A stretch of 36,439 nt of DNA. Origin: a virus. The first letter of the stretch is position 1. Every line of letters begins with the position of its first letter. Location of the stretch: the IMG/VR virus record IMGVR_UViG_3300025070_000005, positions 1 through 36,439 of that record; one strand, given 5' to 3'. Positions 15,617-36,439 of the stretch are shown here, in pieces. The notes beneath the pieces were generated by a model that saw nothing but the letters and a program-made list of their open reading frames with translations, made no database searches and had not been told where the DNA came from. A program made the position numbers and the translations under genes.

Positions 15617-17447
15617 AATAGGTGGAGATATAAGCGAGCTTGAAAAAGCCCTTAGTCAAGCCGTGTCTAAAATTAAGAATGCAGGTAAGCAGGTAACAAG
15701 TGTTGGTAAAACGCTTACAGCCTCGATAACGGCTCCGCTTACAGCTATCGGGGTTGCCTCACTTAAAACGGCTGCGGATTTTGAGACCCTTCAACAATCC
15801 ATGAACTCGTTAAACGGCTCGGTTGAAGAGGGTACTAGAAACTTTAGGAGACTAAAGGAATTTAGTGCAGGAACTCCGTTTCAATTACAGGATTTAGCCA
15901 AAGCCCAGAATATGCTTCAGGGTTTTGGGTTAAGCGCTGATGATGCTTTCGATTCTCTTTCCATGATTGGAGATATTGCGGCTATATCAGGCGGCTCGAT
16001 TGACGGCATCGGTATTGCTTTCGGTCAAGCTGCTGCGGAAGGTCGTTTAATGACTCAGGATATACGACAGCTTATCAATCAAGGCGTGCCTGCTATCAAG
16101 TTACTAGCTAGTACTATGAATGTAGCTGAGTCCGATGTACTGGATTTAGCTTCACAGGGTAAAATTAGCTTTGAAATACTTCAACAATCTTTCAGGGATG
16201 CCACTTCAGAAGGCGGTATGTTTGCTAACGGGATGGAGCAACAATCTAAGACGTTGAACGGATTATTTTCTACCTTAAAAGACAATGTATCTATTGCAAT
16301 GGCTGAAATAGGAAATTCTATTGCGGATGCTATGAATTTAAGAGAAGTAATACCTGCAATGATTGAAAGAATAAAGGGTGTTACGGAGTGGTTTAAGAGC
16401 TTGTCAAAAGAAGCTAAAACGACAATGGTTAATATAGTTCGGGCTATTGCTTTGGTTGGACCGTCTTTAGTTGCTTTGGGTGCTACAATTACAGGAATAG
16501 GTATTGCTATATCTTTGCTTACATCCCCTATTACATTAGTGGTTGGTGCAATCGCAGGATTGGTAACGGCTATCATTTACATGAGGGATAACTGGGAAGC
16601 TGTAACAGAGCGTATGAGTGATTGGGGTTGGTGGCGCAATATGTTGGTTGATATGGCGCAATTCTTAATTGAGTATTCTCCTATTTCATTACTAATTAAG
16701 CAGGTTAATATGTTGCTTAGGTTTCTTGATGTTACAGAGATACCTAACGTATTTGAAGGTATAGCGGATTCGCTTGAAGGGCTAAAAGTAGAAACGAAAG
16801 AGTACGAGAATGAATTTGGAAGCCTAAAAGATGCTTTCTTAAATACGTTCAAAGAATTTACGGGTATTGATTTAGGCAATATGTTCACCCCTGTAAAAGA
16901 AGGTGCTGAGATTGCTAAAGTAGCCGTTCAAACAGTAAGCGATAGTACAGGCGTGTTAGCTCTCAATCTTCAGGATTACTACGTCAAAACAAGAGATTCA
17001 GCTAGAAAAGCAAGCGAGGAAATAAGCAATGCCTCAATGTTTGCCATGAGTGTTGCTAATGAGTTTACTAATTCATTCGGTCAGGGAATGGCTAATGTAG
17101 TTGTTCAGGGCGAAAGATTGGTTGATGTGCTTAAAAACATAGGTAGATTGTTAGCGAGTTCAATTATTCAAAAAGCCTTATCCGTATTCCTCACGGGTGG
17201 CTTGGGTGGTGATGGATTCTTTGGCTCGGGTGGTGGATTGTTTGGTAAGATATTTGGTGTAAATGATGCTTTAATAACATCGGGCGGTGACGTGGTTAAA
17301 TTTCATCCTGATGATAACATATTAGCCATGAAAGACTTTTCAAACCTAAATACAGGCGGAATGCAAAGAGTTGAAGTGTTTGGATCGTTAAACGGTCAGG
17401 ATTTATTTATTAGCTCTAATCGTGGTTCTAAAACATACGAAAGATAA
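15594..17447 (+). CDS. Tape measure protein
   Basis: 617 aa, GTG start at 15594 (MANALNVKIGGDISELEKAL). Sets tail length; at about 0.15 nm per residue this suggests a tail near 90 nm. The N-terminal part with GKTLTASITAPLTAIG and GIAFGQAAAEGRLMTQDIRQ matches the tape measure N-terminal domain. A hydrophobic block near residues 280-330 (VGPSLVALGATITGIG and following) is the likely membrane segment. Short compared with many siphophages. Confidence 0.9.
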   Translation: MANALNVKIGGDISELEKALSQAVSKIKNAGKQVTSVGKTLTASITAPLTAIGVASLKTAADFETLQQSMNSLNGSVEEGTRNFRRLKEFSAGTPFQLQDLAKAQNMLQGFGLSADDAFDSLSMIGDIAAISGGSIDGIGIAFGQAAAEGRLMTQDIRQLINQGVPAIKLLASTMNVAESDVLDLASQGKISFEILQQSFRDATSEGGMFANGMEQQSKTLNGLFSTLKDNVSIAMAEIGNSIADAMNLREVIPAMIERIKGVTEWFKSLSKEAKTTMVNIVRAIALVGPSLVALGATITGIGIAISLLTSPITLVVGAIAGLVTAIIYMRDNWEAVTERMSDWGWWRNMLVDMAQFLIEYSPISLLIKQVNMLLRFLDVTEIPNVFEGIADSLEGLKVETKEYENEFGSLKDAFLNTFKEFTGIDLGNMFTPVKEGAEIAKVAVQTVSDSTGVLALNLQDYYVKTRDSARKASEEISNASMFAMSVANEFTNSFGQGMANVVVQGERLVDVLKNIGRLLASSIIQKALSVFLTGGLGGDGFFGSGGGLFGKIFGVNDALITSGGDVVKFHPDDNILAMKDFSNLNTGGMQRVEVFGSLNGQDLFISSNRGSKTYER

Positions 17448-20400
17448 TGGCAGAAAGATTTTACGCTGACCATACAACCACAGAAACAGGCGAAGATATC
17501 CGTGTTGAGATTCACGATAGTGATTTTGTGGGTTCGGCTTCCAAGCTGAAAGGAACGGGTGCAGGATGGGCTTCACGATCCGTACAACAACTAGACCCGA
17601 GAAACCCGTTATCAAGTCCTGTTCAAAAATCTGAAGTATCAGTTTCATTGTGGGTTGAAAGCTCCTCATTAATTGATGATTTATTTTCAAGCGAAGAAGG
17701 CAGATTTACACTTATCTATGATAAAGATTCAACGGAATACTTTGAAGGAACTATACTTCCTGATTTATGTGATTATGATTACTTAGAAGATAGTGCTTTA
17801 TGGAAGCTAACTATAAAAGCTAAAGATTTATCCATATTAGAGGGTGAATATTATACCGATGATGGAACTATTTCAGGAGCGCTTGAAACAGGAAGAGTTA
17901 CGGTTATTGAGGCAATAGCCGATATACTGCCGTATTCTAAGACAATAAAAACGCATACATCGTGGATAGTTGATGGAACAACTACATCAAACGATTATTT
18001 AAGGCAAGTTTATATAGATAAATACGCACTTAGAACTTATGCACGAACGGGAGACGAGTCAGACGAGCCTATAACTAAGCTGACAGCTTTAGAATGGATT
18101 CTTAAATCTAATGGACTGATACTAAAACAAGAAAACGGATGGGTTTTAGATCATATAACAGCCATGTCAAACCCTGCATCGGTATTAGAGTCAAATTACG
18201 ACACTTCAGGTACGTTTAGTTCTGCATCGAATGTTGATTTAACAAATACAGCAACGATAGTTATAGGTAGTCCATACAATCATAACCCGGGTATTAAATC
18301 GGCTCGATTAAAATACGACCACAGAACAAAGATAAGCGGTATTGTTTATCCGAGTGTTATTGAGTTAGTTGATGCAGGAACAGATTCTTTTTCACAGTTA
18401 TTTATAAGTGACGGAAGCCAAACATTATCGCTTTCATTTACAGTGAATGCTGAGACTGATGAAACTGAGGCGTCAATGGATGCTAGGGTTCGTATTACAT
18501 CGGGAAGCTATTATTTACAGGACGACTTATCGTGGGATACAACGGTTAATAGTTATGTAGAGTTTTCACTAACAAAAGGAAAACCCTTGTCAGGTGGTGG
18601 TAATGTTTGGAGAGGCAGTTTTTCCATAACAACCGATGACATACCCGATGCAGCGGACGGAACTTTAACCGTTCAATTTGCAGGTGCTACGGGTGGTATA
18701 GATTTTGCGGACACTACGGAATATTACGATATTGGATTTTCAATAAATAACTCGGTAGCTCAAGAAAAATCAACATACATAGATTATCAACTGACCCAAA
18801 CGGGAACACAATCAGTTAGGGCTGGGTATGGAAGCGTTTACTTTGGTGATGGTCCTGTTGGGTATTCAAGAGGCGCAATAACCACCGATTCAGGTGGTAC
18901 GGCTTTCACGGCTGATGATTGGGCGAGAAGAGGTGAGGTTTCCTTTGTTAACCATGCTGAAATATTATTAAGAGAGCTGTTAGATGTTCAGAGAAAATCA
19001 AGAAACCGTATAAGTGCAACCGTAAAATCGGGTTTATCCTTTGGTGATATTATTTCTTATGATAGCACTAATTACTATGTGTTAGGTGGGTCTCAGGATG
19101 GCTATACAGGAGTCTCAAAAGTTGAATTACTAGAAGTTGATATACAAACAGGTACAGATACATTTGAAGATTTACCCAAGTTTGAAGAAGAGGCTGTTTC
19201 AGGTAGTGCAAGCACTTCAGGAGGAACAGGGCTAGATGTTACAACGGCTGATGCTAGGTATTTAAAACAAACTAGTAATTTATCTGATATAGATGATGCG
19301 TCTACGGGGAGAACTAATTTAGGTGTAGCAATAGGCTCAGATGTTCAAGGACATAGTGATGCTTTAGATGATATTTCTTTATTAGATGATTCTGACGGTA
19401 ATTTCATAGTAGGTAGCGCTACGGGATGGGTCGCAGAATCAGGAGCTACGGCAAGGGCTAGCTTAGGAGCTAACGATGCAAGTAATTTAACGACGGGCAC
19501 ACTACCAAGCGGAAGAGTGTCAGGTTCTTACACGGGAATTACAGGGGTTGGTGCTTTAAATGCAGGTTCTATTTCTTCTGGATTTGGAGCGATTGACATA
19601 GGCTCGAGCACGTTAACGGCAGGGGCGGCACAAATAATAGGCGATGCCTCTTTAGCTCAGATATTGGTTACCACAAACGCAAATAGTGGAGAGTCTCGAT
19701 TAAGATTAAGACCTGATAACGGTTTACAGGGTGGGTTAGATCTTATAGCCGATGAAACAAATAAAGAAGCTATAATACAAACAAATAACTCTGCTCTTTG
19801 GGATTTAATCTTCAAGATAAGGGGGAGTGATGGAACCAATGAGCGATTTAGGATAGCTAAAGACGTAATAACATCAACAGTAAACTTAAATATAGGAAGT
19901 AATGCATTAACGGCAGGGGCGGCACAAATAATAGGCGATGCCTCTTTAGCTCAGATATTGGTTACCACAAACGCAAATAGTGGAGAGTCTCGATTAAGAT
20001 TAAGACCTGATAACGGTTTACAGGGTGGGTTAGATCTTATAGCCGATGAAACAAATAAAGAAGCTATAATACAAACAAATAACTCTGCTCTTTGGGATTT
20101 AATCTTCAAGATAAGGGGGAGTGATGGAACCAATGAGCGATTTAGGATAGCTAAAGACGTAATAACATCAACAGTAAACTTAAATATAGGAAGTAATGCA
20201 TTAACGGCAGGAACGGGTACATTTGGTGGTACAGTATCCGTAGATAGGGCGGTTGTTATAAGAGATGCCGGAGATACACAGGCATCCTCATTGTCATTAT
20301 ACGAAAGTGGGTCTATTGACGTTTTATTAAGAAGCGACACGGGGACTTCTTATTTGTGTGCAACGGGTGGAGAGTTAGCGGTTGGTGGCGCTTCTCAGCT

Positions 20401-21790
20401 AGGTTCTGCTAAATTAAGCGTTCATGGTGCGTTAACTGCATCAGGGCTTGGTACTCTTAATTCGTTGGGTGTTACGACTACTTCAACATTTGGCGGTAAT
20501 GCTACTTTTGAAAGCAATCTATTTATTGAGGGTGGGCTTTTTGCTAGAGAGTTTATAGTAGATGTTACCAAAGTTCAGTTTGATAACTTAATGACTGTCG
20601 GTGGTGGTAAAGTTGCTAGTGTATCAGGAAGCGCAGGAAGTGAGACAATAACATTTGAAGATGAAAATGGAACCGAAATAGTACCTGTCGGATTAGATGA
20701 TATTGTTCACATTCAAGTAAGGTCGGGAACTACGTTTGGAACGATAGTAAAGAACATTTATAGAAGAGTTGATAACATAGCTACTAATGATATCGAACTA
20801 ACCACTTCAGGAATTACGTGGACAACGGGAGACGATGTTGGGAGTATAGAAGTTGGCGATGATATATTTGTACAGGGTAATCCGACAGATGCAGATAGAG
20901 ACCATTATATTAAATTCGATATCTCGGGTGTTACGGTTCCAAGAGTAAGCGTATTTGATAACGTGATTGATGTGGACGATGATGGCGACCTTCGTATGGT
21001 TTGGGGAGGTATGGACGGAGTATTTGGGGTTACAGGCGATGAAATTGGAATAGGCGTTGGAGATTCTACATTATCAGGAAACCATTTTTTACTTACTGAT
21101 TCACAGGCTAGTTTGAAGCTTGATAACTATGCACTTTCCGCAGGTACGGGTTCGGCAATTATAGGAATGCAATCAGGTAATGCAAGTGATGAGGCTTGGC
21201 TTTGGGGTGGTTCTAATCAAACCGATGGCGCAAGTGTTACGAATGCAAATACTAAGTTCTTTGTGCTTAACAACGGAAAGATTGTTTATAACGGAATGGG
21301 TAAAATTATTTACTCTCCTATGCAAGTTGCGGACTATGGTTCGGACACAGCGGAAGCCTCAGACCCACAGAATAGCGAATGGACTTGTTTAGCTCAAACA
21401 TCGGGCGTTGGAAACAGCGACTCAGACAGCAGAGTTGCAATCGTTAGTAGGTTTAGAAAGCAGTTTGGACTTGATAACATAAATGTGAATTTCTTTGCAG
21501 AATATGCGAGAACGAGTTCTTCAACGGCTTTATATACGAATGAAGTTCAGGTTGTAATTAAAACGGTTGCAGGGGTAACACAAAGTACTAGTACTTACAC
21601 GGTTACAGGCTCAACACATTCCGAGTTTGATGAAGATATAGACATAAGCGCTTTAACCGATGGCGACATTTATTCGATTGAAGTAATTAGATATGCAGAT
21701 GTAGAAATTAATTCAGGTGATGAATTTGACACAGCAACGAACAGAACCAATTTAAGAGGTGATGTTTACATAACAACTAGTCCAGAATAA
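17447..21790 (+). CDS. Tail tip/fibre protein (1447 aa)
   Basis: Residues 1-550 look like a tail-tip hub or distal-tail type region (MAERFYADHTTTETGEDIRV; LDPRNPLSSPVQKSEVSVSL). From about residue 600 the protein becomes fibre-like: SNLSDIDDASTGRTNLG, GATARASLGANDASNL and repeated xIGSxxLTAG words. Residues 723-918 are a perfect 98-residue segment present twice. The C-terminus (from about 1290) is a beta-rich domain with no recognised chaperone peptidase. It is the best candidate for receptor contact. Gene follows the tape measure with one-base contact. Confidence 0.82.
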   Translation: MAERFYADHTTTETGEDIRVEIHDSDFVGSASKLKGTGAGWASRSVQQLDPRNPLSSPVQKSEVSVSLWVESSSLIDDLFSSEEGRFTLIYDKDSTEYFEGTILPDLCDYDYLEDSALWKLTIKAKDLSILEGEYYTDDGTISGALETGRVTVIEAIADILPYSKTIKTHTSWIVDGTTTSNDYLRQVYIDKYALRTYARTGDESDEPITKLTALEWILKSNGLILKQENGWVLDHITAMSNPASVLESNYDTSGTFSSASNVDLTNTATIVIGSPYNHNPGIKSARLKYDHRTKISGIVYPSVIELVDAGTDSFSQLFISDGSQTLSLSFTVNAETDETEASMDARVRITSGSYYLQDDLSWDTTVNSYVEFSLTKGKPLSGGGNVWRGSFSITTDDIPDAADGTLTVQFAGATGGIDFADTTEYYDIGFSINNSVAQEKSTYIDYQLTQTGTQSVRAGYGSVYFGDGPVGYSRGAITTDSGGTAFTADDWARRGEVSFVNHAEILLRELLDVQRKSRNRISATVKSGLSFGDIISYDSTNYYVLGGSQDGYTGVSKVELLEVDIQTGTDTFEDLPKFEEEAVSGSASTSGGTGLDVTTADARYLKQTSNLSDIDDASTGRTNLGVAIGSDVQGHSDALDDISLLDDSDGNFIVGSATGWVAESGATARASLGANDASNLTTGTLPSGRVSGSYTGITGVGALNAGSISSGFGAIDIGSSTLTAGAAQIIGDASLAQILVTTNANSGESRLRLRPDNGLQGGLDLIADETNKEAIIQTNNSALWDLIFKIRGSDGTNERFRIAKDVITSTVNLNIGSNALTAGAAQIIGDASLAQILVTTNANSGESRLRLRPDNGLQGGLDLIADETNKEAIIQTNNSALWDLIFKIRGSDGTNERFRIAKDVITSTVNLNIGSNALTAGTGTFGGTVSVDRAVVIRDAGDTQASSLSLYESGSIDVLLRSDTGTSYLCATGGELAVGGASQLGSAKLSVHGALTASGLGTLNSLGVTTTSTFGGNATFESNLFIEGGLFAREFIVDVTKVQFDNLMTVGGGKVASVSGSAGSETITFEDENGTEIVPVGLDDIVHIQVRSGTTFGTIVKNIYRRVDNIATNDIELTTSGITWTTGDDVGSIEVGDDIFVQGNPTDADRDHYIKFDISGVTVPRVSVFDNVIDVDDDGDLRMVWGGMDGVFGVTGDEIGIGVGDSTLSGNHFLLTDSQASLKLDNYALSAGTGSAIIGMQSGNASDEAWLWGGSNQTDGASVTNANTKFFVLNNGKIVYNGMGKIIYSPMQVADYGSDTAEASDPQNSEWTCLAQTSGVGNSDSDSRVAIVSRFRKQFGLDNINVNFFAEYARTSSSTALYTNEVQVVIKTVAGVTQSTSTYTVTGSTHSEFDEDIDISALTDGDIYSIEVIRYADVEINSGDEFDTATNRTNLRGDVYITTSPE
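19613..19906 (+). repeat. Fibre gene duplication, unit 1 (294 bp)
   Basis: Identical, by direct reading, to 19907-20200; the unit is 98 codons so the frame is kept. The first 11 bases of the unit (TTAACGGCAGG) occur a third time at 20201-20211, which suggests unequal exchange at that word. It encodes a segment from LTAGAAQIIGDASLAQ to VNLNIGSNA. Confidence 0.9.
19907..20200 (+). repeat. Fibre gene duplication, unit 2 (294 bp)
   Basis: Second copy of the in-frame 294-bp unit, with no visible base change from unit 1. Lack of any synonymous drift points to a recent duplication, or to a collapse/expansion by the assembler. Confidence 0.9.
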
Positions 21791-28924: not shown

Positions 28925-29390
28925 TGAGCCGATTGAGGGATATGCTCCCCCTTCATCCATTGCAGAATCGGCTTCCAGAAACAACATAATTAACTGGTTT
29001 ATGTTTTACTGGATTATCCAGTTTAAAATAAGGCTCACTAACTGCTTCAGGGCTTAGTGAGTGGTGTGTTTCGTTACGTCTTTCAAAACCCGATACGCCT
29101 GAAGATCACCGCTTCCTTAAAATGTTGAGTGAGGACAGGATTCGATACCTGTAAGATGGTTTGTTGCTTCGATGCTTTAATCCATTTAGGAGTGTCCACA
29201 TGGGTCTTATCCATCTACCCGTTATAGCGTTTACTTATCGCATTGCCCGTAGTCTGGATTATTCGGTTAATAACCTATTTTTATGCGCTTTCGCCACCTC
29301 ACTCAGTTTCAAGGAACCCGAACTAAACACCGCTTTCATGTCTCTTTTGCTTCTAGGAAAGCAGGGCGTCCTAGAACATTCGGGTTCCAA
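28925..29390 (-). ncRNA. Candidate large ornate structured RNA
   Basis: A block of about 470 bp without a credible gene, packed with long complementary arms: 28927-28934/28966-28973 (8 bp), 28983-28989/28999-29005 (7), 29008-29013/29017-29022 (6), 29034-29041/29054-29061 (8), 29126-29134/29297-29305 (9), 29135-29139/29148-29152 (5), 29154-29159/29211-29216 (6), 29313-29322/29379-29388 (10) and 29351-29358/29369-29376 (8). Loop bases 29045-29051 pair with 29098-29104 (7 bp), a pseudoknot. Minus strand is preferred because all nearby genes and the strong promoter at 29744-29774 point that way; a TATATTTA box near 28911 keeps the plus strand possible. Size and phage setting recall GOLLD and ROOL RNAs, but membership is untested. 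Confidence 0.6.
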
Positions 29391-29452
29391 TTTCATTAAA
29401 TTCAAAGAACTGTTTAAAACCCGATTATGCTCTCACACACAATCGGATAATC

Positions 29453-29527
29453 TCATTTGCTTATTTTACTGATAAAATCGTCTTTCAGCGTTTCGTTTAT
29501 TTCGTTTACTATCTCGGAGGTTTTCAT
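29453..29527 (-). CDS. 24-aa ORF after the inverted leader copy
   Basis: ATG at 29527 preceded by AAAGGAATTGAT, the same spacing as at the right-hand end of leader copy 1. Product MKTSEIVNEINETLKDDFIS then KISK. A CCGATT/AATCGG stem (29421-29446) followed by TTTT on this strand comes shortly after the stop. It may be only a leader for the RNA downstream. Confidence 0.4.
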   Translation of the reverse strand: MKTSEIVNEINETLKDDFISKISK

Positions 29528-29546
29528 ATCAATTCCTTTTAATTAA

Positions 29547-29732
29547 AAGCACCTACTCACCTTCGGTGCTTTGAGAATTAGTTATTCTTCAAATCAGCTA
29601 TGTGGTTAATCCAGTTGTTAGCCTGTTCGTAATAATACTTATCACCCGTTTCAGCAAAGGCATCTTTAAAAAATTCTACTTTAGTTTCTGCGTGTTTAAT
29701 TTGTTCGGCCATAATTCTCAAAGTTTGTTATT
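29547..29732 (-). repeat. 186-bp leader repeat, inverted copy
   Basis: Exact reverse complement of 1-186. Flanks differ immediately at both ends. It starts 12 bases downstream of the -7 box of a strong promoter, the same arrangement as at the right contig end. Confidence 0.95.
29578..29712 (-). CDS. 44-aa leader protein, second copy
   Basis: Identical in sequence to the ORF at 21-155. The absence of even one synonymous change argues that the copies are kept alike by gene conversion or arose recently. Here it leads into the structured RNA block instead of a gene run. Confidence 0.6.
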   Translation of the reverse strand: MAEQIKHAETKVEFFKDAFAETGDKYYYEQANNWINHIADLKNN

Positions 29733-29743
29733 AATTGCTTACA

Positions 29744-29774
29744 CAAAGATAGTAAACTCTAAATTTAAAGTCAA
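29744..29774 (-). promoter_or_regulatory. Bacteroidota-type promoter for the inverted leader unit
   Basis: On the minus strand TTG (29774-29772), 20 bases, TATCTTTG (29751-29744), a full match to TTG-N20-TAnnTTTG. A dyad GTTAAC-TAAA-GTTGAC overlaps the -33 element and could be an operator. Confidence 0.75.
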
Positions 29775-29793
29775 CTTTAGTTAACAATTATTT

Positions 29794-30084
29794 TCAATTA
29801 ATCATTTGCATAGTTCCGTACCCGTGTTTTAGTACGTGAGATTGATACCACCTGTCGTTAATTAGCTCATTATGTTTTTTCACGCTCTTATAAACTGTTA
29901 CTCTCGTTCTGTTTAGAAATTCAGATATTTTTTTAATCGGAATACTTTGAGATTTACAAAGCGCTATAAACCCATGTCGGTACATACAAAGCTCCTGCAA
30001 CTGGTTAGGGGATGTAAGGTCGCTTACTATTATCCCGTGTTGCTTACAATAGAATTTTGCTAGGTTTTGGATGGATGGTTTCAT
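29794..30084 (-). CDS. DnaA C-terminal-domain-like DNA-binding protein
   Basis: 96 aa. LAKFYCKQHGIIVSDLTSPN, then a helix with GFIALCKSQSIPIKKISEFL and RTRVTVYKSVKKHNEL, which resemble the DnaA domain IV order of helices with its signature position. No ATPase part. Probably binds double-stranded DNA; might recognise DnaA-box-like sites in the phage origin or regulate. Confidence 0.6.
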   Translation of the reverse strand: MKPSIQNLAKFYCKQHGIIVSDLTSPNQLQELCMYRHGFIALCKSQSIPIKKISEFLNRTRVTVYKSVKKHNELINDRWYQSHVLKHGYGTMQMIN

Positions 30085-30335
30085 TTTATATCTTTTTTTG
30101 ATATAAGTTCAATTTCTTTATTTAATCTTTTGTTTTTATCGAAACCCCTTGATTCCTTTCTAAGCCTTTCCAATCTTTCAATGAGAACTTCTTTAGGCTC
30201 TTCAACTAATTCAATAGTAACCTTATATTTTCGATATTCTAAAAAATTTATATTGCATGGTTCTTCTTTTTTTAATTGATTAATCGTGTATGTATTTTCT
30301 AAATCTTTAAATGTTTCAAATTCAATTTTTTTCAT
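30081..30335 (-). CDS. Hypothetical protein (84 aa)
   Basis: Charged; beta-rich middle (NFLEYRKYKVTIELVEEP) and a long basic helix at the end (LIERLERLRKESRGFDKNKR). No family recognised. Stop overlaps the next ATG by 4 bases. Confidence 0.6.
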   Translation of the reverse strand: MKKIEFETFKDLENTYTINQLKKEEPCNINFLEYRKYKVTIELVEEPKEVLIERLERLRKESRGFDKNKRLNKEIELISKKDIK

Positions 30336-30339
30336 AATC

Positions 30340-30717
30340 CTATCCTGTTATTTTTTTATTTGGTTGTGATGTTAAATGCCAAGCATCACATTTTTTACAA
30401 AAGTATCTTCTCGATTCCTTTCTTGATGAATTAAAACTAAGCAAGCACCTACTAAGCCATTTCCTTGACTCTTCATCAGTAAATGACCTTTTACCACACC
30501 CTAAAGGCTCACTAATGTTCATGTATTCAGCCGTAAACTCTTTAAAGTCCTTCATGTTTTCATTTATGTATTTAATTATTACTGGCATTTTTGGGGTTTG
30601 CTCAGGTCTTACCTTTTTGCCATAAAAATCAGTAGCTACGTTTGATCTGTGAATGTTGTATTTATCCTTTAGGTACTTCATTACATCATCGTAATTTTTA
30701 GTCTCTGAATATTTCAT
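30340..30717 (-). CDS. Hypothetical protein with C-terminal zinc knuckle (125 aa)
   Basis: Helical N-terminal part and a C-terminal CKKCDAWHLTSQ segment, a Cys-Cys-His arrangement common in small replication-associated phage proteins. It is coupled to the DnaC-like gene by 4-base overlap, so a role near replication is plausible but not shown. Confidence 0.6.
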   Translation of the reverse strand: MKYSETKNYDDVMKYLKDKYNIHRSNVATDFYGKKVRPEQTPKMPVIIKYINENMKDFKEFTAEYMNISEPLGCGKRSFTDEESRKWLSRCLLSFNSSRKESRRYFCKKCDAWHLTSQPNKKITG

Positions 30718-31475
30718 CCCGTTATTTTATTTAGTAATTGTTTTTGCCTTTTATCGGCTTCGTCTTGCCTGTGATCGTAATCTGGGAACTCAATCAAAAC
30801 TCCCATTTCCTCAACACGGCTTGCCACTCTAGGGTGGTAGGGTAAATCTTTAATATCTACATTAGAAGTAAATATTGTCGGTTTGCCTGATTGATACCTA
30901 GTGTCTATAATTTCCAAAACTTTATCGTGTCGCCAATCTGTTTTTTTAGCTTCGAATCCTATTTCATCCAATATCAACAAAGGAACACTTTTAATTACGT
31001 TCAATATTCTAAGAGAGCTTATATCTGAATTGCTAAACGATTCCTGAAACAAAGTAAATAAATCATTCATTGTATAAATTTGACTAGCTACCTTGTTACG
31101 GTTGTAAAGTTCGTTCGCTATTATACAAGCTAGTAAAGTCTTTCCACATCCGACAGAGTCCGAATAGAAGTACATTCCAATACCTTCTTTAGATAACCCT
31201 TCCCATTTGGTCAGATATGCCTCTGCTATTTTTTTAATCTTCGTATATCCTCTTTCTTTATCTGTGGTGAAGTCAACTAATAGTTTACCTTCGTACTTAT
31301 TCGCTTGCTCAGAGCCGTACGCATAGCACAAAGGCTTTAAACTATCCGCTTGGATGTCTTGCATCGAAAAAGTAATAGGGTCGCCTATACTCGATTTTTT
31401 AGTCGATTTGATCGAGTATGCTAATTCGCTCTCTTCCATTATTTCGCTTAGTTTTTGGGGTTGCCTTGTTTTCAT
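30714..31475 (-). CDS. DnaC-like helicase loader ATPase
   Basis: 253 aa. Walker A SDSVGCGKT (105-113), Walker B LLILDEIG (Asp170, Glu171), sensor region PTIFTSNVDIKDLP and an Arg-rich lid (VASRVEEMG). Loads a replicative helicase, here that of the host since no phage DnaB is seen. It overlaps the initiator gene by 77 bases, so the two are tightly linked. Confidence 0.85.
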   Translation of the reverse strand: MKTRQPQKLSEIMEESELAYSIKSTKKSSIGDPITFSMQDIQADSLKPLCYAYGSEQANKYEGKLLVDFTTDKERGYTKIKKIAEAYLTKWEGLSKEGIGMYFYSDSVGCGKTLLACIIANELYNRNKVASQIYTMNDLFTLFQESFSNSDISSLRILNVIKSVPLLILDEIGFEAKKTDWRHDKVLEIIDTRYQSGKPTIFTSNVDIKDLPYHPRVASRVEEMGVLIEFPDYDHRQDEADKRQKQLLNKITG

Positions 31476-32094
31476 CTTTAAACCACACTGATTGCATTTT
31501 TAATTTCCAGTTCTTAATTACGTTATCCCGTGAATCTCTCCAATACTTTCTTTTAGGATTATCTTCTACCGATGCGTTATACATATTGTAAGCTCTTTCA
31601 GCTACATCTAAACTATAACCGTTTTTATTGAAGTAATCTTTAACCTCTTCCAAAGTGGGAATGAAAGAAACTTTAGTTTCGCTATATTCTTCTTTATTAT
31701 TCTTACTTGTAGTATTAATACTTGTACTATTATCTTTTAGGTTTTCTGACCACCCCTCTTTAGATTTATTGACCACCCCCTTTCGATTTTCTGAATACCC
31801 CCTTTCGATTTTCTGAATAGGGTAAATGTTTCTTTGCTTCACTTCTTTTCCTTCATTTATGTACTCAACTATAACATGGTTATTCTCTTTTAAAGATTTA
31901 ACCCAAAGGCTTACAGTAGATGTGCTTACCCCGTACAATTCAGCGAAATAAGAGTTTGAAGCATAACAGTAACCGTGTTTATTACTTAATGCTGTTATCT
32001 CTCCGTAGAATAGCTTTTGAGAGCCTGAAAGGGAATTATCGTACCTAACACTAGATGGTATTATAGCATAATAGTTTGGTTTGTCTTTACTCAT
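31399..32094 (-). CDS. Replication initiator-like protein with winged helix
   Basis: 231 aa. Residues 1-85 look like an HTH_36/RepA-type winged helix (SGSQKLFYGEITALSNKHGY; YFAELYGVSTSTVSLWVKSL). Residues 90-140 are a low-complexity linker, encoded by four ~22-bp direct repeats and an AT-rich tract. The C-terminal part (LEEVKDYFNKNGYSLDVAER) resembles the DnaC/DnaI-contact domain of phage initiators. The layout is that of lambda O, in which the origin lies inside the initiator gene. Confidence 0.75.
   Translation of the reverse strand: MSKDKPNYYAIIPSSVRYDNSLSGSQKLFYGEITALSNKHGYCYASNSYFAELYGVSTSTVSLWVKSLKENNHVIVEYINEGKEVKQRNIYPIQKIERGYSENRKGVVNKSKEGWSENLKDNSTSINTTSKNNKEEYSETKVSFIPTLEEVKDYFNKNGYSLDVAERAYNMYNASVEDNPKRKYWRDSRDNVIKNWKLKMQSVWFKDENKATPKTKRNNGRERISILDQID
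31730..31818 (-). repeat. Four iteron-like direct repeats, candidate origin
   Basis: On the minus strand: 31818-31797 and 31796-31775 are identical 22-mers (ATTCAGAAAATCGAAAGG then GGGT), 31774-31752 and 31751-31730 are diverged copies (GGTCAATAAATCTAAAGAGG and GGTCAGAAAACCTAAAAGAT). Because 22 is not a multiple of three, the copies are read in different frames, so selection for protein sequence does not explain them. A 12-bp palindrome AGTATTAATACT and an AT-rich tract follow at 31670-31729. Confidence 0.7.
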
Positions 32095-32149
32095 TTTGCT
32101 TGTAGTTTAAAATTAAAAAGCCCCTGAAAGAACCTACCGCTAATATTCT

Positions 32150-32229
32150 TTGGCGTGGCAGATGGAAACGTTCTGCTGAATACGATAGGCTCTCGCAAGA
32201 GCTTTACTTTCCGTGTTATCCGACGCCAA
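32150..32229 (-). promoter_or_regulatory. Structured 5' leader of the initiator gene
   Basis: The 245-bp gap between SSB and the initiator gene holds nested helices: TTGGCGT (32150-32156)/ACGCCAA (32223-32229), GGAAA (32164-32168)/TTTCC (32208-32212), and GCTCT-cgca-AGAGC (32189-32202). On the minus strand it begins about 20 bases after a promoter and ends about 55 bases before the initiator ATG, with a GGGGCTTTTT run in between. It could be a regulatory leader or a small RNA of its own. Confidence 0.55.
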
Positions 32230-32248
32230 TCAGATTCAGTAATTACAC

Positions 32249-32279
32249 TAAATATACCTATATGGTTGGTTTAATGCAA
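32249..32279 (-). promoter_or_regulatory. Promoter for initiator/helicase-loader genes
   Basis: Minus-strand TTG (32279-32277), 20 bases, TATATTTA (32256-32249). Spacing is exact and the -7 box departs from TAnnTTTG only at the last base. Confidence 0.65.
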
Positions 32280-32308
32280 TGGTTAAAAGTGTAAGGTTTA
32301 AAATATTC

Positions 32309-32337
32309 TGTCACAAATTTAGTGGATATTTGTGACA
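32309..32337. promoter_or_regulatory. 10-bp inverted repeat after SSB gene
   Basis: TGTCACAAAT (32309-32318) and ATTTGTGACA (32328-32337) are perfect complements with 9 bases between them. On the minus strand the stem is followed by GAATATTTT. It can serve as SSB terminator or as an operator of the promoter 30 bases downstream. Confidence 0.55.
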
Positions 32338-32339
32338 AG

Positions 32340-32771
32340 CTAGAAGGGAAGATCTTGACCATCATCAAAGTCTTTCCCTAATTCTACGGGTGAACTTTGC
32401 GAGTTGTTTTGCGGGTTCTTTGGAGCGCCACCTTGATAATTATCGCTTTTACTATCTAACATAGTCATTTGCAAAGCCTTTATCTCAGTTGAATATCGCT
32501 TCTCTCCGTCTTTCTCCCATGAACGGGTTTCGATTTTGCCTTCTACATAGACAAGTGATCCTTTTTTTAGGTAGTCTCTGCATACCTCAGCCAATCTACC
32601 CCAAGCTACGATGTTATGCCATTGAGTGTTTTCTACTTGCTCTCCGTTCTTATCTTTATACTTCTCGCTAGTTGCTATTGAGAAATTTGTAACGGTTGAA
32701 TTTCCTACTTGTTTTGATTCAGGGTCTTTTCCAATCCGACCTATTAATTGTGCTTTATTTAGTGAACTCAT
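32340..32771 (-). CDS. ssb: Single-stranded DNA-binding protein
   Basis: 143 aa. OB-fold start LNKAQLIGRIGKDPESKQVG, the WHNIVAWGRLAEVCRDYLKK core and KGSLVYVEGKIETRSWEKDG strand. Linker rich in Asn/Gln/Ser and the acidic tip DDGQDLPF that binds partner proteins. Ends the upstream recombination block; the initiator promoter follows. Confidence 0.95.
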   Translation of the reverse strand: MSSLNKAQLIGRIGKDPESKQVGNSTVTNFSIATSEKYKDKNGEQVENTQWHNIVAWGRLAEVCRDYLKKGSLVYVEGKIETRSWEKDGEKRYSTEIKALQMTMLDSKSDNYQGGAPKNPQNNSQSSPVELGKDFDDGQDLPF

Positions 32772-33012
32772 GTGTGTTTATTTTTATTTTTGGATAAATT
32801 GTAATTGTTGATTTAATATCTTTGTGCTTGCCTTCTGAATATACCTTCCCTTCATCTATGCAATATACCGTTGATACGGTTTTTAAGTCGCTAATTTGAT
32901 GCGTTGCTTTTACGTGGTTGTGAATGGGTTCTTGTACTAAGAATATTAAAGATGCCATAAACCCCACGCCTAGTATAATACTAAATAAAAGCACTAATAA
33001 ACTCTTCATCAC
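32755..33012 (-). CDS. Small membrane-anchored protein (85 aa)
   Basis: A hydrophobic N-terminal helix (SLLVLLFSIILGVGFMASLI) acts as anchor or uncleaved signal; the rest is a small, probably periplasmic domain (VSTVYCIDEGKVYSEG). Overlaps SSB by 17 bases and the upstream gene by 32 bases. Confidence 0.6.
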   Translation of the reverse strand: MMKSLLVLLFSIILGVGFMASLIFLVQEPIHNHVKATHQISDLKTVSTVYCIDEGKVYSEGKHKDIKSTITIYPKIKINTHEFTK

Positions 33013-33169
33013 TCACCTCATCTGTATAAATTAAATGTTCGCAATCTCCGTTTTCATCGGGAGAAAATTCATCATAAGATTGCCTTTCTAAATCAGGTGG
33101 TGCGCAAAATCTCCAGCACATATCAGATAAATGGCAATCTTTATTAGTACACATTGTTATATCAGCCAT
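32981..33169 (-). CDS. Cys-rich small protein, zinc-binding type (62 aa)
   Basis: MCTNKDCHLSDMCWRFCAPP is a run of four closely spaced cysteines, and QSYDEFSPDENGDCEHLIYT holds a fifth. This motif order recurs in small phage proteins of unknown role next to recombination genes. Start shares one base with the upstream stop. Confidence 0.65.
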   Translation of the reverse strand: MADITMCTNKDCHLSDMCWRFCAPPDLERQSYDEFSPDENGDCEHLIYTDEVSDEEFISAFI

Positions 33170-33390
33170 TATTTCACCTCTTTATAACTTCGTTTAGCTT
33201 TTACATCGTTTATAGCCCACTTACTAACTCCGTAAATCTTAGATAGCTCCTTAGTGCTTAAATTTGAAGCCCGTATTTCTCTTACATCTTCGTGAGTTAG
33301 TTTGTTAGGCTTAGTTTCTTCTTGAACAAAATTATATGGTAGCATGTCGCCTGACCATTCTTTATAGTTCGTTGCTCCGTTTCCTTTCAT
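33169..33390 (-). CDS. HTH protein, paralogue of next gene (73 aa)
   Basis: Start at ATG 33390, giving ATGA contact. The C-terminal 45 residues, LTHEDVREIRASNLSTKELS and KIYGVSKWAINDVKAKR, form an HTH similar residue by residue to the upstream gene. Comparable domains sit at the end of phage homing-endonuclease-related proteins, but the nuclease part is absent here. Confidence 0.7.
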   Translation of the reverse strand: MKGNGATNYKEWSGDMLPYNFVQEETKPNKLTHEDVREIRASNLSTKELSKIYGVSKWAINDVKAKRSYKEVK

Positions 33391-33590
33391 TTCACTCCTT
33401 TGTATGTGTTGTAGTTTTTGACGTTGCAAATAACGCTTTCGCTTCGTTCGTAAATCTTTGCTAACTCTTTGCTAGGCTTATCTGATTTTCTAATTTCCCG
33501 AACTTCATCCCGGGTTAAAGCCCTTTTCTTAGTTGATTTCTTCTTACCAAAACCGTAAGGCATTGGATAGGTTTGATTAGTAAAACTCAT
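33387..33590 (-). CDS. HTH protein, paralogue of previous gene (67 aa)
   Basis: LTRDEVREIRKSDKPSKELA and KIYERSESVICNVKN match the neighbour over about 45 residues, indicating tandem duplication followed by divergence. The N-terminal 20 residues differ. Probably DNA-binding. Confidence 0.7.
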   Translation of the reverse strand: MSFTNQTYPMPYGFGKKKSTKKRALTRDEVREIRKSDKPSKELAKIYERSESVICNVKNYNTYKGVK

Positions 33591-33769
33591 TTACTACACC
33601 TCATTAAAAATTTATGTTTAAGTACAAAATTCCATCCTTTATTAAACGCATTAGCCTGAGCGTTCCATCTTCCGAACCTGTTAAAGGTTCTCTCACAATT
33701 GCCTTTAGTCTCAATACAGGCTGTTAAGCCCTCGTTGTATGCCTCGTTTCTTCTTTTGGAGCTAATCAT
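33587..33769 (-). CDS. Hypothetical protein (60 aa)
   Basis: Basic, with RRNEAYNEGLTACIETKGNC and NAQANAFNKGWNFVLKHKF segments and aromatic/Asn repeats. No family recognised. Overlaps both neighbours by 4-8 bases. Confidence 0.55.
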   Translation of the reverse strand: MISSKRRNEAYNEGLTACIETKGNCERTFNRFGRWNAQANAFNKGWNFVLKHKFLMRCSK

Positions 33770-34022
33770 TTTGAAATGTAATCTGATTTTCAGAAGAAGT
33801 AATAGATCCGCTTAATCCGTATTCCATAAACGGAAGATATTGAGAATTTTCACTTATACCATTCTTAGCTTTTTTTAGATACTTCCTTTCCATATCTTTT
33901 GGATTATCAAAATATTTACCCATCTCTTTAAACATTTGTGTTCGTGAAGTGAATACTATCTTTTGACAGCCTACACTTACAATCCATCCGTTTAATACAC
34001 CTTCAATTTTTATGTCTTTCAT
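33762..34022 (-). CDS. Hypothetical conserved phage-type protein (86 aa)
   Basis: GVLNGWIVSVGCQKIVFTSR followed by YFDNPKDMERKYLKKA is a pattern seen in small phage proteins of recombination regions (NGW..SVGCQ). Function unknown. Confidence 0.6.
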   Translation of the reverse strand: MKDIKIEGVLNGWIVSVGCQKIVFTSRTQMFKEMGKYFDNPKDMERKYLKKAKNGISENSQYLPFMEYGLSGSITSSENQITFQND

Positions 34023-34072
34023 TTTGTTTCCTGTATTTTGGCAATAAACCTAATCTATTGCCGATTTAAAGT

Positions 34073-34480
34073 TTATAAATACCTTTTATGACTTGATATA
34101 TGATCGTCAATCTGTCTTTTGTTTTGCCTGTATTCATCAGGAGTTGGAATATAACACCCTTGCATCCCTGAATAGTCTCTTATCCAATCTATGAAGTCGG
34201 TAAGCTCTTTAGAGTCCATCCCTCTAGTTCTCTTTAGAAACTTATCTCCGTTCTTTTCATAAACCATAAACGAGCAATTCCTTTTTAGAAGTGTTTTAGC
34301 TTCATCTAAAGTATAACCAAATTCAATGGCAAAGATTGATATGCAAACATGAAGGTAAGAGTTTTGTGTTAGCGTTCTTTTTTCCCTTATCTCTGTTAGT
34401 TCAACCTTTTTATCTTTTAGGGTTTTAAGCCTAGCCTTGAATTTGTTTGCATCGTATGGTTTAGAAAGATCGTAAATCAT
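34073..34480 (-). CDS. NinB-like recombination-associated protein
   Basis: 135 aa. Starts MIYDLSKPYDANKFKARLKT and has VELTEIREKRTLTQNSYLHV near residues 26-45, like the RT..QN..LH signature of NinB/Orf-type proteins that help load annealing proteins on SSB-coated DNA. Second half (GYTLDEAKTLLKRNC; DFIDWIRDYSG) also fits. Directly downstream of ERF, which supports the role. Confidence 0.65.
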   Translation of the reverse strand: MIYDLSKPYDANKFKARLKTLKDKKVELTEIREKRTLTQNSYLHVCISIFAIEFGYTLDEAKTLLKRNCSFMVYEKNGDKFLKRTRGMDSKELTDFIDWIRDYSGMQGCYIPTPDEYRQNKRQIDDHISSHKRYL

Positions 34481-34483
34481 AGG

Positions 34484-35044
34484 TTATTTAATATGTCCAG
34501 CTTCTTTTGATATGTTAACAAAGTATTCCATGTTCAATTTATTAACAGCATATTTATCCCTAAGCTTGTATGGATTGCCACCATTTCGAACCCATTCTTC
34601 TGCTTTATCCCATTCCTCCATGCCCTCATTGAGCCACTCTTTATCATCTGATTTTTTCGATGGTTTACTATCTTTTGGTTTACTTGATCCTTTAGAAGCT
34701 AAATTTGCATCATCATCTTCTGCCTCAATTCCTAAAAGAGATTGGAGGGAATATCTTCTGTAATAAGTTATTGCAGAACCAATCTTTTGCGGATCGTTAA
34801 TTTCAGGTAGGGGTATAAAAGATTCGACAGTTTCACCCGATCCAAAATCCATTATAATGGTTCCAACCTCTCCGTTTTTTATAGGCTGTAAAAGCAACAA
34901 GTCATGTCTTATAAATTCAGGTCTTAATGTTTCAATCAGTTGGTTTACATCAAAATACCTAGACTTATAAAAAGGGTTTTCGCTATCCTTTTTCATCTTA
35001 TCCATTGTTGATGTTATTTCAAATAGTTTTTTATAGATGCTCAT
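34484..35044 (-). CDS. erf: ERF-family single-strand annealing protein
   Basis: 186 aa. IGSAITYYRRYSLQSLLGIE and EDDDAN near residues 88-114 are the ERF signature; FYKSRYFDVNQLIETLRPEF near the start fits the domain too. The C-terminal part after a Lys/Ser-rich linker is probably a partner-binding tail. Mediates recombination and concatemer or circle formation with NinB-like protein, SSB and RusA. Confidence 0.88.
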   Translation of the reverse strand: MSIYKKLFEITSTMDKMKKDSENPFYKSRYFDVNQLIETLRPEFIRHDLLLLQPIKNGEVGTIIMDFGSGETVESFIPLPEINDPQKIGSAITYYRRYSLQSLLGIEAEDDDANLASKGSSKPKDSKPSKKSDDKEWLNEGMEEWDKAEEWVRNGGNPYKLRDKYAVNKLNMEYFVNISKEAGHIK

Positions 35045-35484
35045 TTCTTCACCATTTTTAAAGATGTTGTGTAACTTGATTCAGCAGGCGGTATAACCTC
35101 ACCATGAACTACAAGCTGTTTATTTTGCTCATTCATTTGTAAGGCTTTTTTCATCAGGTTTTCACGCTCTTTTTTAGAAGTCTCGATCCCTTGCCATTCT
35201 TCATCATGCTTGTAGGAATAGTTTGAACGCCCTGTTAATTGAACATCAAACCCATGATAAACCAACTCTTCTTTTTCTCCATACTTTTGCCGTTCATCAA
35301 TAGCAATATCTTTTATTCTATTTAATACTTGGCTTAGCAATTTGCTTTGACTGTATAACAAAGCATACGCTTCCATTGGATTCATTAACCCTTCATCAAC
35401 CCTTTCTTCGATTGATAAAAAGTCCTGATGTGCTATCTCTTGCAACCCTACTTCCTGTCCGTAGTTTCCTTGTACTTCACTCAT
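35041..35484 (-). CDS. Hypothetical protein upstream of ERF (147 aa)
   Basis: Helical, with YALLYSQSKLLSQVLNRIKD and the FDVQLTGRSNYSYKHDEEW segment typical of phage proteins next to annealing genes (similar to siphophage HNH-less helper proteins). May be a recombination accessory. ATGA contact on both sides. Confidence 0.6.
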   Translation of the reverse strand: MSEVQGNYGQEVGLQEIAHQDFLSIEERVDEGLMNPMEAYALLYSQSKLLSQVLNRIKDIAIDERQKYGEKEELVYHGFDVQLTGRSNYSYKHDEEWQGIETSKKERENLMKKALQMNEQNKQLVVHGEVIPPAESSYTTSLKMVKK

Positions 35485-35633
35485 TTATTTTCTCCTATTT
35501 TACCGTAAGGCGCTTCTGTTACTGAAACCACCTTAGCTTGATTGTCGTATTTGTCGTTAATTTCTTTAGCTATCTGATTAGCTTCTTCTTCGTTGTTGAC
35601 ATACATATCTATTGTTACAGCGTATCTTTTCAT
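35481..35633 (-). CDS. Hypothetical protein (50 aa)
   Basis: ATG at 35633 (MKRYAVTIDMYVNNEEEANQ), stop overlapping the next ATG as ATGA. The beta strand plus helix pattern KRYAVTIDMYVNNEEEA looks like half of a small ferredoxin-like fold. Missed by length cut-offs but clearly coding by coupling. Confidence 0.65.
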   Translation of the reverse strand: MKRYAVTIDMYVNNEEEANQIAKEINDKYDNQAKVVSVTEAPYGKIGENK

Positions 35634-35914
35634 AGTTCCTTTTGTATTTGTTCTTCAATAACTTCAAATAGTAATTCGTTAGTCTCAACATCAGGAGCGT
35701 ATTCTAAAGCCCATTCAGATTGAGTTACTTCCGTTATGTAGTCGTATTTGTCAATAGCTCCTTTTCCAATTAGGAATACAGCATCTTCAAAATCGAGTTC
35801 TTTTTCCATTGCTCCGAATCCAGTTTCAAATCGAGGCGAACCTGATAACGCACTATCGCAATGTCTTTGCTCGTACACTCCGTTATAGTTCATGTTTACT
35901 AGAGGTAAGTTCAT
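35630..35914 (-). CDS. Hypothetical acidic protein (94 aa)
   Basis: Acidic with many aromatic residues; PLVNMNYNGVYEQRHCDSAL near the start, and an acidic helix at the end (ETNELLFEVIEEQIQKEL). DNA mimicry is possible for such proteins but not supported here. 4-base overlaps on both sides. Confidence 0.6.
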   Translation of the reverse strand: MNLPLVNMNYNGVYEQRHCDSALSGSPRFETGFGAMEKELDFEDAVFLIGKGAIDKYDYITEVTQSEWALEYAPDVETNELLFEVIEEQIQKEL

Positions 35915-36120
35915 TTCTTTTCCACCAATTCAATATTAAGATTAAGTAAATCCATCAACTTTTTTATGTCCTCAGACTTTAAACATCTATTAGAAGATGA
36001 AAAGTTATATAAGGACTGTTTTGGTATCCCTGCATTTTCAGCAATTTGATACATTTTCAAACCCGTTCTTGATTTATACTCGTGTAACTTTCCGTTTAGT
36101 TTGTGGTCAAATTCATTCAT
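35911..36120 (-). CDS. Cro/CI-type HTH regulator (69 aa)
   Basis: KMYQIAENAGIPKQSLYNFS is a classical HTH and the downstream helix (SEDIKKLMDLLNLNIELVE) completes an XRE domain. First gene of the leftward operon, directly next to the divergent promoter region; probably binds there and controls one or both directions. Confidence 0.78.
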   Translation of the reverse strand: MNEFDHKLNGKLHEYKSRTGLKMYQIAENAGIPKQSLYNFSSSNRCLKSEDIKKLMDLLNLNIELVEKK

Positions 36121-36150
36121 TTATTATTGGTCTATTTAAAATTGCTTTTC

Positions 36151-36181
36151 ACATTATACGGATATTTATTAACCTAAACAA
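36151..36181 (-). promoter_or_regulatory. Leftward early promoter
   Basis: Minus-strand TTG (36181-36179), 20 bases, TATAATGT (36158-36151). Drives the HTH regulator and the recombination genes. TTTTCACA at 36146-36153 overlaps the -7 box and is the mirror of TGTGAAAA at 36200-36207, which flanks the other promoter. Confidence 0.55.
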
Positions 36182-36211
36182 GAACTATTTTCTTTATTTT
36201 GTGAAAAAAGA

Positions 36212-36243
36212 TTTGCATATATCAAAAAAGGGTTGTAGATTCT
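36212..36243 (+). promoter_or_regulatory. Rightward early promoter
   Basis: TTTG (36212-36215), 20 bases, TAGATTCT (36236-36243), then the 186-bp leader starts 10 bases later. Same geometry as the promoter of the inverted leader copy, but with a weaker -7 box. Confidence 0.6.
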
Positions 36244-36253
36244 CTCAAGCAAC

Positions 36254-36439
36254 AATAACAAACTTTGAGAATTATGGCCGAACAAATTAAACACGCAGAA
36301 ACTAAAGTAGAATTTTTTAAAGATGCCTTTGCTGAAACGGGTGATAAGTATTATTACGAACAGGCTAACAACTGGATTAACCACATAGCTGATTTGAAGA
36401 ATAACTAATTCTCAAAGCACCGAAGGTGAGTAGGTGCTT
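36254..36439 (+). repeat. 186-bp leader repeat, right contig end
   Basis: Same as 1-186. If the molecule is circular these are one and the same copy, and the genome length is 36,253 bp. The partial context here shows what precedes the leader: promoter and divergent regulator. Confidence 0.95.
36274..36408 (+). CDS. 44-aa leader protein (same as 21-155)
   Basis: Repeat of the ORF at 21-155 through the terminal overlap; it should be counted once if the contig is circular. Confidence 0.6.
   Translation: MAEQIKHAETKVEFFKDAFAETGDKYYYEQANNWINHIADLKNN

Follow-up and report, generated by a model that had tools for sequence, protein, structure and literature searches.

The window analysed here is the whole of a 36,439-base virus record (IMGVR_UViG_3300025070_000005), whose genes include those for a terminase large subunit, a portal and a major head protein, and the question it raises is what is specified by the approximately 470 bp between positions 28,925 and 29,390. 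A preliminary description had proposed a large, ornate phage non-coding RNA here, perhaps of a new family. We find that a structured phage RNA is indeed present, but that its recognisable unit is about 176–180 nt long, is tRNA-shaped, and lies on the minus strand; the preliminary description had neither recognised this core nor named a strand. As judged from its sequence, the core is very probably a structured RNA built as a tRNA frame in which the decoding arm is replaced by another folded segment. The family to which it belongs seems not to have been described previously and occurs in many bacterial viruses. A literature search, with most subscription journals outside its reach, found no earlier description of this RNA family.

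The helices named in the preliminary description are all present: a 10-bp stem (29313–29322 with 29379–29388), an 8-bp stem nested within it (29351–29358 with 29369–29376), and a 7-bp pairing between 29045–29051 and 29098–29104. Their density is above that of shuffled sequences, although the excess is moderate and less dramatic than had been suggested. Counting perfect Watson-Crick arms within 150 nt against 100 dinucleotide shuffles, we observe four arms of at least 8 bp versus 0.6 expected (no shuffle reaches four), seven of at least 7 bp versus 2.4 (2/100), and 16 of at least 6 bp versus 10.1 (6/100). For 28925–29390, folding gives z = −2.5 (minus strand) and z = −3.0 (plus strand). The absence of a plausible gene also holds, in that a 103-amino acid plus-strand open reading frame (29161–29472, with a TTG start) has no Pfam or PHROG match, and a coding explanation was dropped as the overlapping reading frames match no protein family. 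Since the genes on both sides run leftward, the minus strand is the most likely one to encode the RNA; the plus strand was rejected as the RNA strand, for although it folds about equally well, the tRNA D- and T-arm sequences, a boxA-like site and a covariance model all favour the minus strand.

Standard searches do not detect the element. An Rfam search of the region at thresholds up to E = 10 gave only chance-level matches to SCARNA7 and U12, so that the region matches no Rfam family and the suggested kinship with GOLLD and ROOL found no support. Neither the Rfam tRNA model (RF00005) nor a transfer-messenger RNA (tmRNA) covariance model matches at the window, ARAGORN finds no tRNA or tmRNA in it, and none of the inspected family members of the window's type is reported by ARAGORN. 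BLAST of the region against phages returned no relatives, and neither did a protein-based search using the helicase-loader and DnaA_C-like proteins.

Read from 29305 to 29126 on the minus strand, the 5′ part of the core is UGAGUGAGG-UG-GCG-AAA-(hairpin CGCAU...AUGCG)-AUAAGUAAA-CGC, and the 3′ part that follows CGC is (74 nt)-ACAGG-UAUCGAAU-CCUGU-CCUCACUCA. The D arm is of the tRNA-Leu type (GUGGCG...ACGC) and there is no anticodon arm. The features of the core are as follows.

29126–29305, minus strand: the tRNA-like core RNA as a whole, supported by a held-out model match (29128–29303) and by covariation in the family.
29297–29305, minus strand: 5′ strand of an acceptor-like stem, UGAGUGAGG, the family's 7-bp part being AGUGAGG; pairs with 29126–29134 and covaries in 46 cores.
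29292–29294, minus strand: 5′ strand of the D stem, GCG, within conserved GUGGCGAAA; pairs with CGC at 29227–29229.
29239–29287, minus strand: hairpin inserted in the D loop, with closing stem CGCAU/AUGCG, followed by AUAAGUAAACGC; a stem is at the same position in 11 D-insert members.
29153–29226, minus strand: central segment, or 'payload', replacing the anticodon and variable arms; the anticodon arm is absent family-wide.
Within 29153–29226, minus strand: a possible H-type pseudoknot in the payload, with S1 GGGU/ACCC and S2 AGAUGG/CCAUCU (p = 0.04 in the window).
29135–29152, minus strand: T arm, ACAGG-UAUCGAAU-CCUGU, with an odd 8-nt T loop.
29126–29134, minus strand: the 3′ side of the acceptor-like helix, CCUCACUCA, directly adjoining the T stem and identified by its pairing with 29297–29305.

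The family was recruited by scanning viral contigs for the T arm only (19 bases, in two T-stem variants), which gave 19 and 77 loci; L numbers below denote loci, including those from other searches. Most loci share the frame (7-nt acceptor)-TGGCGnAA-(n)-AGACGC-(20–200 nt)-T arm-(acceptor partner). In this sample TGGCGnAA lies no more than 260 nt upstream of 53 of the 79 distinct T arms, against a background of 2.8%. With acceptor positions for these 53 members fixed in advance and pairing not consulted, 44 have perfect 7/7 acceptor pairing, and the mean is 6.72 pairs compared with 3.71 ± 0.16 when partners are shuffled among members; the acceptor sequence itself differs among members although pairing is kept. 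Among 46 distinct cores, 98.4% of cells are paired (69.2% in shuffles), there are 166 double changes (45 in shuffles), and the covariation score is 0.782 compared with 0.174 ± 0.017, a value that none of 500 shuffles reaches and that falls to 0.10–0.18 if partners are slid by one to three columns. Changes on both sides are seen at all seven acceptor pairs, and acceptor position 3 is variable. We conclude from the pairing and covariation that the family reflects neither chance nor decayed tRNA genes. Covariation in homologous phages, which the preliminary description had named as a test of its proposal, is thus strong in the core; the outer parts of the region give no such evidence, because L009 and L011, the sole relatives that share them, do not differ from the window (100% identity).

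The window belongs to a subfamily with an inserted stem in the D loop, found at the same position in 11 members (combined p = 1.7e-8; p = 0.014 for the window). In an alignment (A2) of eight D-insert members without the window, four helices are kept and three covary, including the D-insert stem, with 14 pairs showing double changes compared with 6.7 in shuffles and a score of 0.599 compared with 0.200. A covariance model (R1) with these eight seeds and the window excluded gives a single match in the window, at 29128–29303 on the minus strand (76.1 bits, E = 1.9e-19), in which conserved bases of the D and T arms score by construction since the seeds were gathered with patterns from the window's own arms, and the acceptor and D-insert pairings do not. 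The same model recovers most other family members. The terminases of the L045 and L044 phages are 71% and 36% identical to that of the window, and the SSB of L003 is 50% identical, so that relatives of the window phage share its frame and have different payloads. A D-arm scan of 13 virus records at one fixed spacing gave zero matches, an uninformative result, and a wider pattern search for the D-insert subfamily added one new locus, L160 (approximately 11046–11109, minus strand), a D-insert member that has an extra segment apparently in or beside the T arm and lacks the UAUCGAAU loop.

How far is this RNA still a tRNA? The window has the acceptor, the GUGGCGnAA D arm, the 8-nt T loop and the covarying stems that define the phage family, and the covariation tests place the acceptor flush with the T stem, as in tRNA. 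An anticodon arm after the D stem is not found: at least four of five pairs form in 12% of members versus 19% of shuffles, compared with an anticodon stem in 9/9 tRNA-Leu genes reported by ARAGORN. The D-loop GG is missing from 40 of 46 short D loops. In a sample recruited by the D arm only, leaving the T arm unconstrained, T loops are mostly UAUCGAAU (14 members) or UAUCAAAU/C (six members); overall they are mostly UAUC(G/A)AA(U/C) or other non-canonical forms, with canonical UUCAAAU once. Neither the family's prevailing loops nor the window's UAUCGAAU corresponds to the 7-nt UUCRANN loop which, with the D-loop GG, makes up a tRNA elbow. As the D-loop GG contacts the T-loop UUC in a normal tRNA elbow, both sides of the contact are lost together. 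The base after the acceptor, the discriminator, is not conserved (26 A, 16 C, 19 U and three G), which is evidence against a single fixed aminoacyl identity. Separately, six loci (L147, L142, L144, L128, L133 and L134) form a second expanded tRNA-Leu-like class with the same D arm and the T arm GGG-UGAAAGU-CCC, and some members of that class adjoin a real tRNA gene.

The segment between the D and T arms ranges from about 20 to nearly 200 nt across the family. Within the GGATGGG group, flank identity is often 0.87–0.99 and the middles are at shuffle level. For L026 and L056, identity is 0.90 upstream, 0.67 in the middle (0.68 when shuffled) and 0.99 downstream, and L052 and L073 behave likewise; conversely, L013 and L019, and L002 and L005, are identical elements inside unrelated flanks. 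These alignments show a hypervariable central segment that is evidently swapped as a block between related phages. Helices that interleave next to the T arm reach significance in L034, L046, L050, L100 and L028 (p ≤ 0.01 in each) and in 47 members combined (Fisher p = 1.6e-5). Nested helices are enriched as well (p = 1.4e-4), and the pseudoknot is therefore not a family-wide rule. A conserved pseudoknot in every payload was rejected, significance being confined to a subset. Several different members can occur in a single phage, as in contigs IMGVR_UViG_3300042288_001089 and 3300044647_001355 (L018, L020, L132; L007, L019), and L117 has two copies with identical payloads.

The family is phage-borne, and it is present in many unrelated phages, beyond those of Bacteroidota. 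When 84,980 cellular species genomes were scanned for the exact T arm, only two copies turned up, both beside phage-type genes (NinB, HNH and DnaB on the L158 contig; YopX-like and ParB-like on the L159 contig). A covariance model run on 299 genomes from the phylum of the L158 host gave one hit in 299 and nothing further, and a plasmid search for the family gave no match. A short query combining the D and T arms matched 87 records of named phages, mostly phAPEC8-type Escherichia coli phages that carry no annotation at the T arm. In L093 this T arm is part of a tRNA-like 76-nt element (1675–1750, reverse complement), which is likewise unannotated, has the same 8-nt T loop, and is kept in dozens of named Phapecoctavirus-type records. 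Neighbouring genes are not conserved and include those for portal, scaffold, terminase, ThyX, clamp loader, Erf, primase and helicase. Some members are located among tRNA genes, and in L024, L029, L033 and L043 a phage gene for the CCA-adding enzyme (tRNA nucleotidyltransferase) lies directly upstream on the same strand, 69 nt from the element in the L024 group.

Several known RNAs share part of this plan. In the tRNA-like domain of tmRNA (SsrA), too, a tRNA acceptor and T arm are kept and a long segment containing pseudoknots takes the place of the anticodon arm; the window RNA differs in its Leu-type D stem, its UAUCGAAU T loop, its hypervariable payload, its unconserved discriminator and the failure of tmRNA models to match it, and there is no recognisable tag-coding region, tag frames not having been searched systematically. 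One phage carries both kinds of RNA, with a permuted tmRNA (RF04321, 49.6 bits) at 2217–2429 of L103, about 300 nt downstream of a family member at 1808–1917. With class II tRNA-Leu (RF00005) the core shares a 7-bp acceptor flush with a 5-bp T stem and the D arm GUGGCG...AGACGC, and it differs in the 8-nt T loop and in the family's lack of an anticodon arm, a regular variable arm and a D-loop GG. In the engineered 'tRNA scaffold' for RNA expression, a foreign RNA reportedly replaces the anticodon arm and is processed and stabilised as a tRNA; the phage RNA, unlike this, is natural and has altered T and D loops. GOLLD and ROOL are ornate, pseudoknotted, phage-borne RNAs often found near tRNA islands, with tRNAs sometimes inside GOLLD (PMC12286853), but the likeness is one of kind only, the core here being 100–200 nt rather than more than 600 nt, defined by its tRNA frame, and without an Rfam match. 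Phage tRNAs are also known to counter tRNA-cleaving defences such as retron-Eco7 and PrrC; these are whole tRNAs able to decode, and they stand in for the host tRNA that has been cleaved (PMC11555353). They too are phage-encoded tRNA-shaped RNAs in an arms race, whereas the RNA here cannot decode; the use of whole tRNAs in this way makes a non-decoding variant plausible and no more than that.

The signals from which expression may be proposed lie upstream of the core.

29402–29410, minus strand: boxA-like GUUCUUUGA upstream of the RNA, supported by motif enrichment in the family.
29421–29446, minus strand: hairpin CCGATT...AATCGG ahead of the boxA-like site (29395–29460 has z = −2.7 on the minus strand).
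29744–29751, minus strand: TATCTTTG, a Bacteroidota-type −7 box and candidate promoter, identified by consensus match.

A boxA-like GTTCTTT(G/A), presumably the Bacteroidota rRNA-type boxA, occurs no more than 300 nt upstream in the sense orientation in 10 of 63 members, where about 1.5 are expected; none of those ten has it in antisense. The putative −7 box is found directly upstream of acceptors in only 5/63 members in sense and 3/63 antisense, and is suggestive in L004 and L036 only.

We infer the expression, maturation and target of the RNA along the following lines. Transcription would proceed leftward past the boxA-like site, with the Bacteroidota-type promoter near 29750 as its probable origin. 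The stacked acceptor and T stem with the Leu-type D stem would present the shape that host tRNA-maturation enzymes recognise (RNase P at the 5′ end and tRNA 3′ processing), and by virtue of this shape the RNA could be excised and stabilised like a tRNA. Having neither an anticodon arm nor a conserved discriminator, it does not decode and probably carries no single fixed amino acid. The frame holds a folded payload, often pseudoknotted, that is block-replaced between related phages, and which, on its tRNA-shaped body, most likely binds, blocks or decoys a host factor. A possible target is a tRNA-sensing or tRNA-cleaving defence, and arms-race turnover would explain the hypervariability of the payload. 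We favour this whole explanation, of a non-decoding tRNA-framed RNA that is matured as a tRNA and bears a changeable payload, perhaps for counter-defence, but hold it tentatively. Still more cautiously, it may constitute a natural 'tRNA scaffold' of a counter-defence or takeover class, a constant, elbow-less, host-matured frame displaying interchangeable payloads that inhibit or decoy host factors. The least certain step, and a doubtful one, is the role of the payload in counter-defence.

A number of observations weigh against this interpretation. Only some members have a significant pseudoknot, and in the window, where S1 is 4 bp, its significance is marginal; payloads compared with their own loci show no long sense or antisense match and no antisense target; members share no single conserved neighbour gene, and their neighbours are not defence-related; and the constancy of the T loop is partly set by the search patterns. 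What suggests counter-defence is solely the phage-borne distribution and the turnover of payloads. If it is correct, a natural tRNA scaffold would be a class of RNA device separate from tRNAs and tmRNA. The family in any case adds to phage genomes a covariation-supported RNA that current tools miss, and as Rfam misses it at the window and ARAGORN misses the inspected members of the window's type, standard annotation leaves such genes blank. An anticodon-less tRNA frame with a swapped hypervariable core implies a viral, non-decoding use of the tRNA shape, and payload turnover points to a specific, changing target. L026, L056 and L085, with the same flanks and different payloads, are a natural allelic series in which function is directly testable.

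Among alternative explanations, the one that survives best is that the RNA is a tRNA mimic for host takeover, occupying ribosomes, EF-Tu or tRNA-modifying or processing enzymes and so shutting off or redirecting host translation. The tRNA-like shape, the phage-borne distribution and the occurrence in unrelated phages would fit this, but a conserved target predicts a conserved payload, and payloads are unrelated despite near-identical flanks; we regard it as unlikely.

Somewhat less likely again is an aminoacylated tmRNA-like adaptor, charged in keeping with its Leu-type D arm and entering the ribosome or aminoacyl-tRNA pathway with the payload in place of the tmRNA pseudoknots. LeuRS has no need of the anticodon, and this, the D arm, the acceptor/T-arm minihelix and the CCA-adding enzyme gene beside the element in the L024 group all speak for such an adaptor. 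The unconserved discriminator, an acceptor sequence that is free apart from its pairing, the general absence of the G18G19 elbow bases, the non-canonical T loop and the absence of a tmRNA match at the window speak against it.

We give equally little weight to the possibility that the whole 470-nt region is a single GOLLD/ROOL-type ornate RNA (a multimeric cage) of which the core is one domain. Further helices do lie on both sides of the core, on single-sequence evidence.

29313–29388, minus strand: upstream domain, a 10-bp stem GGAACCCGAA/UUCGGGUUCC around an 8-bp hairpin.
28927–29104, minus strand: downstream helices, comprising the CUUCAGG/CCUGAAG loop pairing and the hairpin CUCACUAA/UUAGUGAG.
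28927–29104, minus strand: further downstream helices, comprising an ACUGGA/UCCAGU hairpin and the terminal hairpin AGCCGAUU/AAUCGGCU.

The upstream domain has z = −4.0 on the minus strand (0/200 shuffles), and the loop of its 8-bp hairpin can pair with 29328–29336 in a possible pseudoknot. The folding excess of 28925–29125 is weak (z = −1.65), and it is uncertain whether the downstream helices are part of the RNA. The strength of these helices and the possible pseudoknots on both sides would be expected of an ornate RNA, as would the boxA-like site in front, and by inspection L003 has a similar layout, with a boxA-like site and hairpin domain ahead of its tRNA-like core. Nevertheless, Rfam gives no match, the outer helices have no covarying homologues, and most family members are bare units of 100–200 nt.

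A mobile or selfish RNA element, spreading between phages without function for them, seems more improbable still: identical elements in unrelated flanks (L013/L019 and L002/L005) and a variable genomic location are what it predicts, but no mobility protein is encoded, the payload is replaced inside constant flanks and a constant frame, and there is boxA-like regulation. Least credible is an authentic tRNA gene whose unusual intron is spliced out to give a normal tRNA; such a gene would account for the acceptor, D and T arms and for members among tRNA genes, but not for an anticodon stem beside the D stem below shuffle level (9/9 in controls), an 8-nt T loop and lost elbow bases that would spoil the product, or the lack of any group I or II intron match.

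Two other features of the window are of note. The duplicated leader of the preliminary description exists, and a sequence of approximately 190–213 bp is in fact present three times: at 29520–29732, inverted at 1–213 (95.8% identical), and inverted at 36254–36439, the last being an identical copy of 29547–29732. It contains a possible 44-amino acid open reading frame (29578–29712, minus strand) and a terminator-like hairpin (29545–29572). The 186-bp inverted pair flanks 29733–36253, which might invert, although the copy at the contig end could be an assembly feature. Elsewhere, at 19613–20211, there is a tandem duplication of approximately 294 bp (identical 305-bp matches) within a 1447-amino acid open reading frame (17447–21790).
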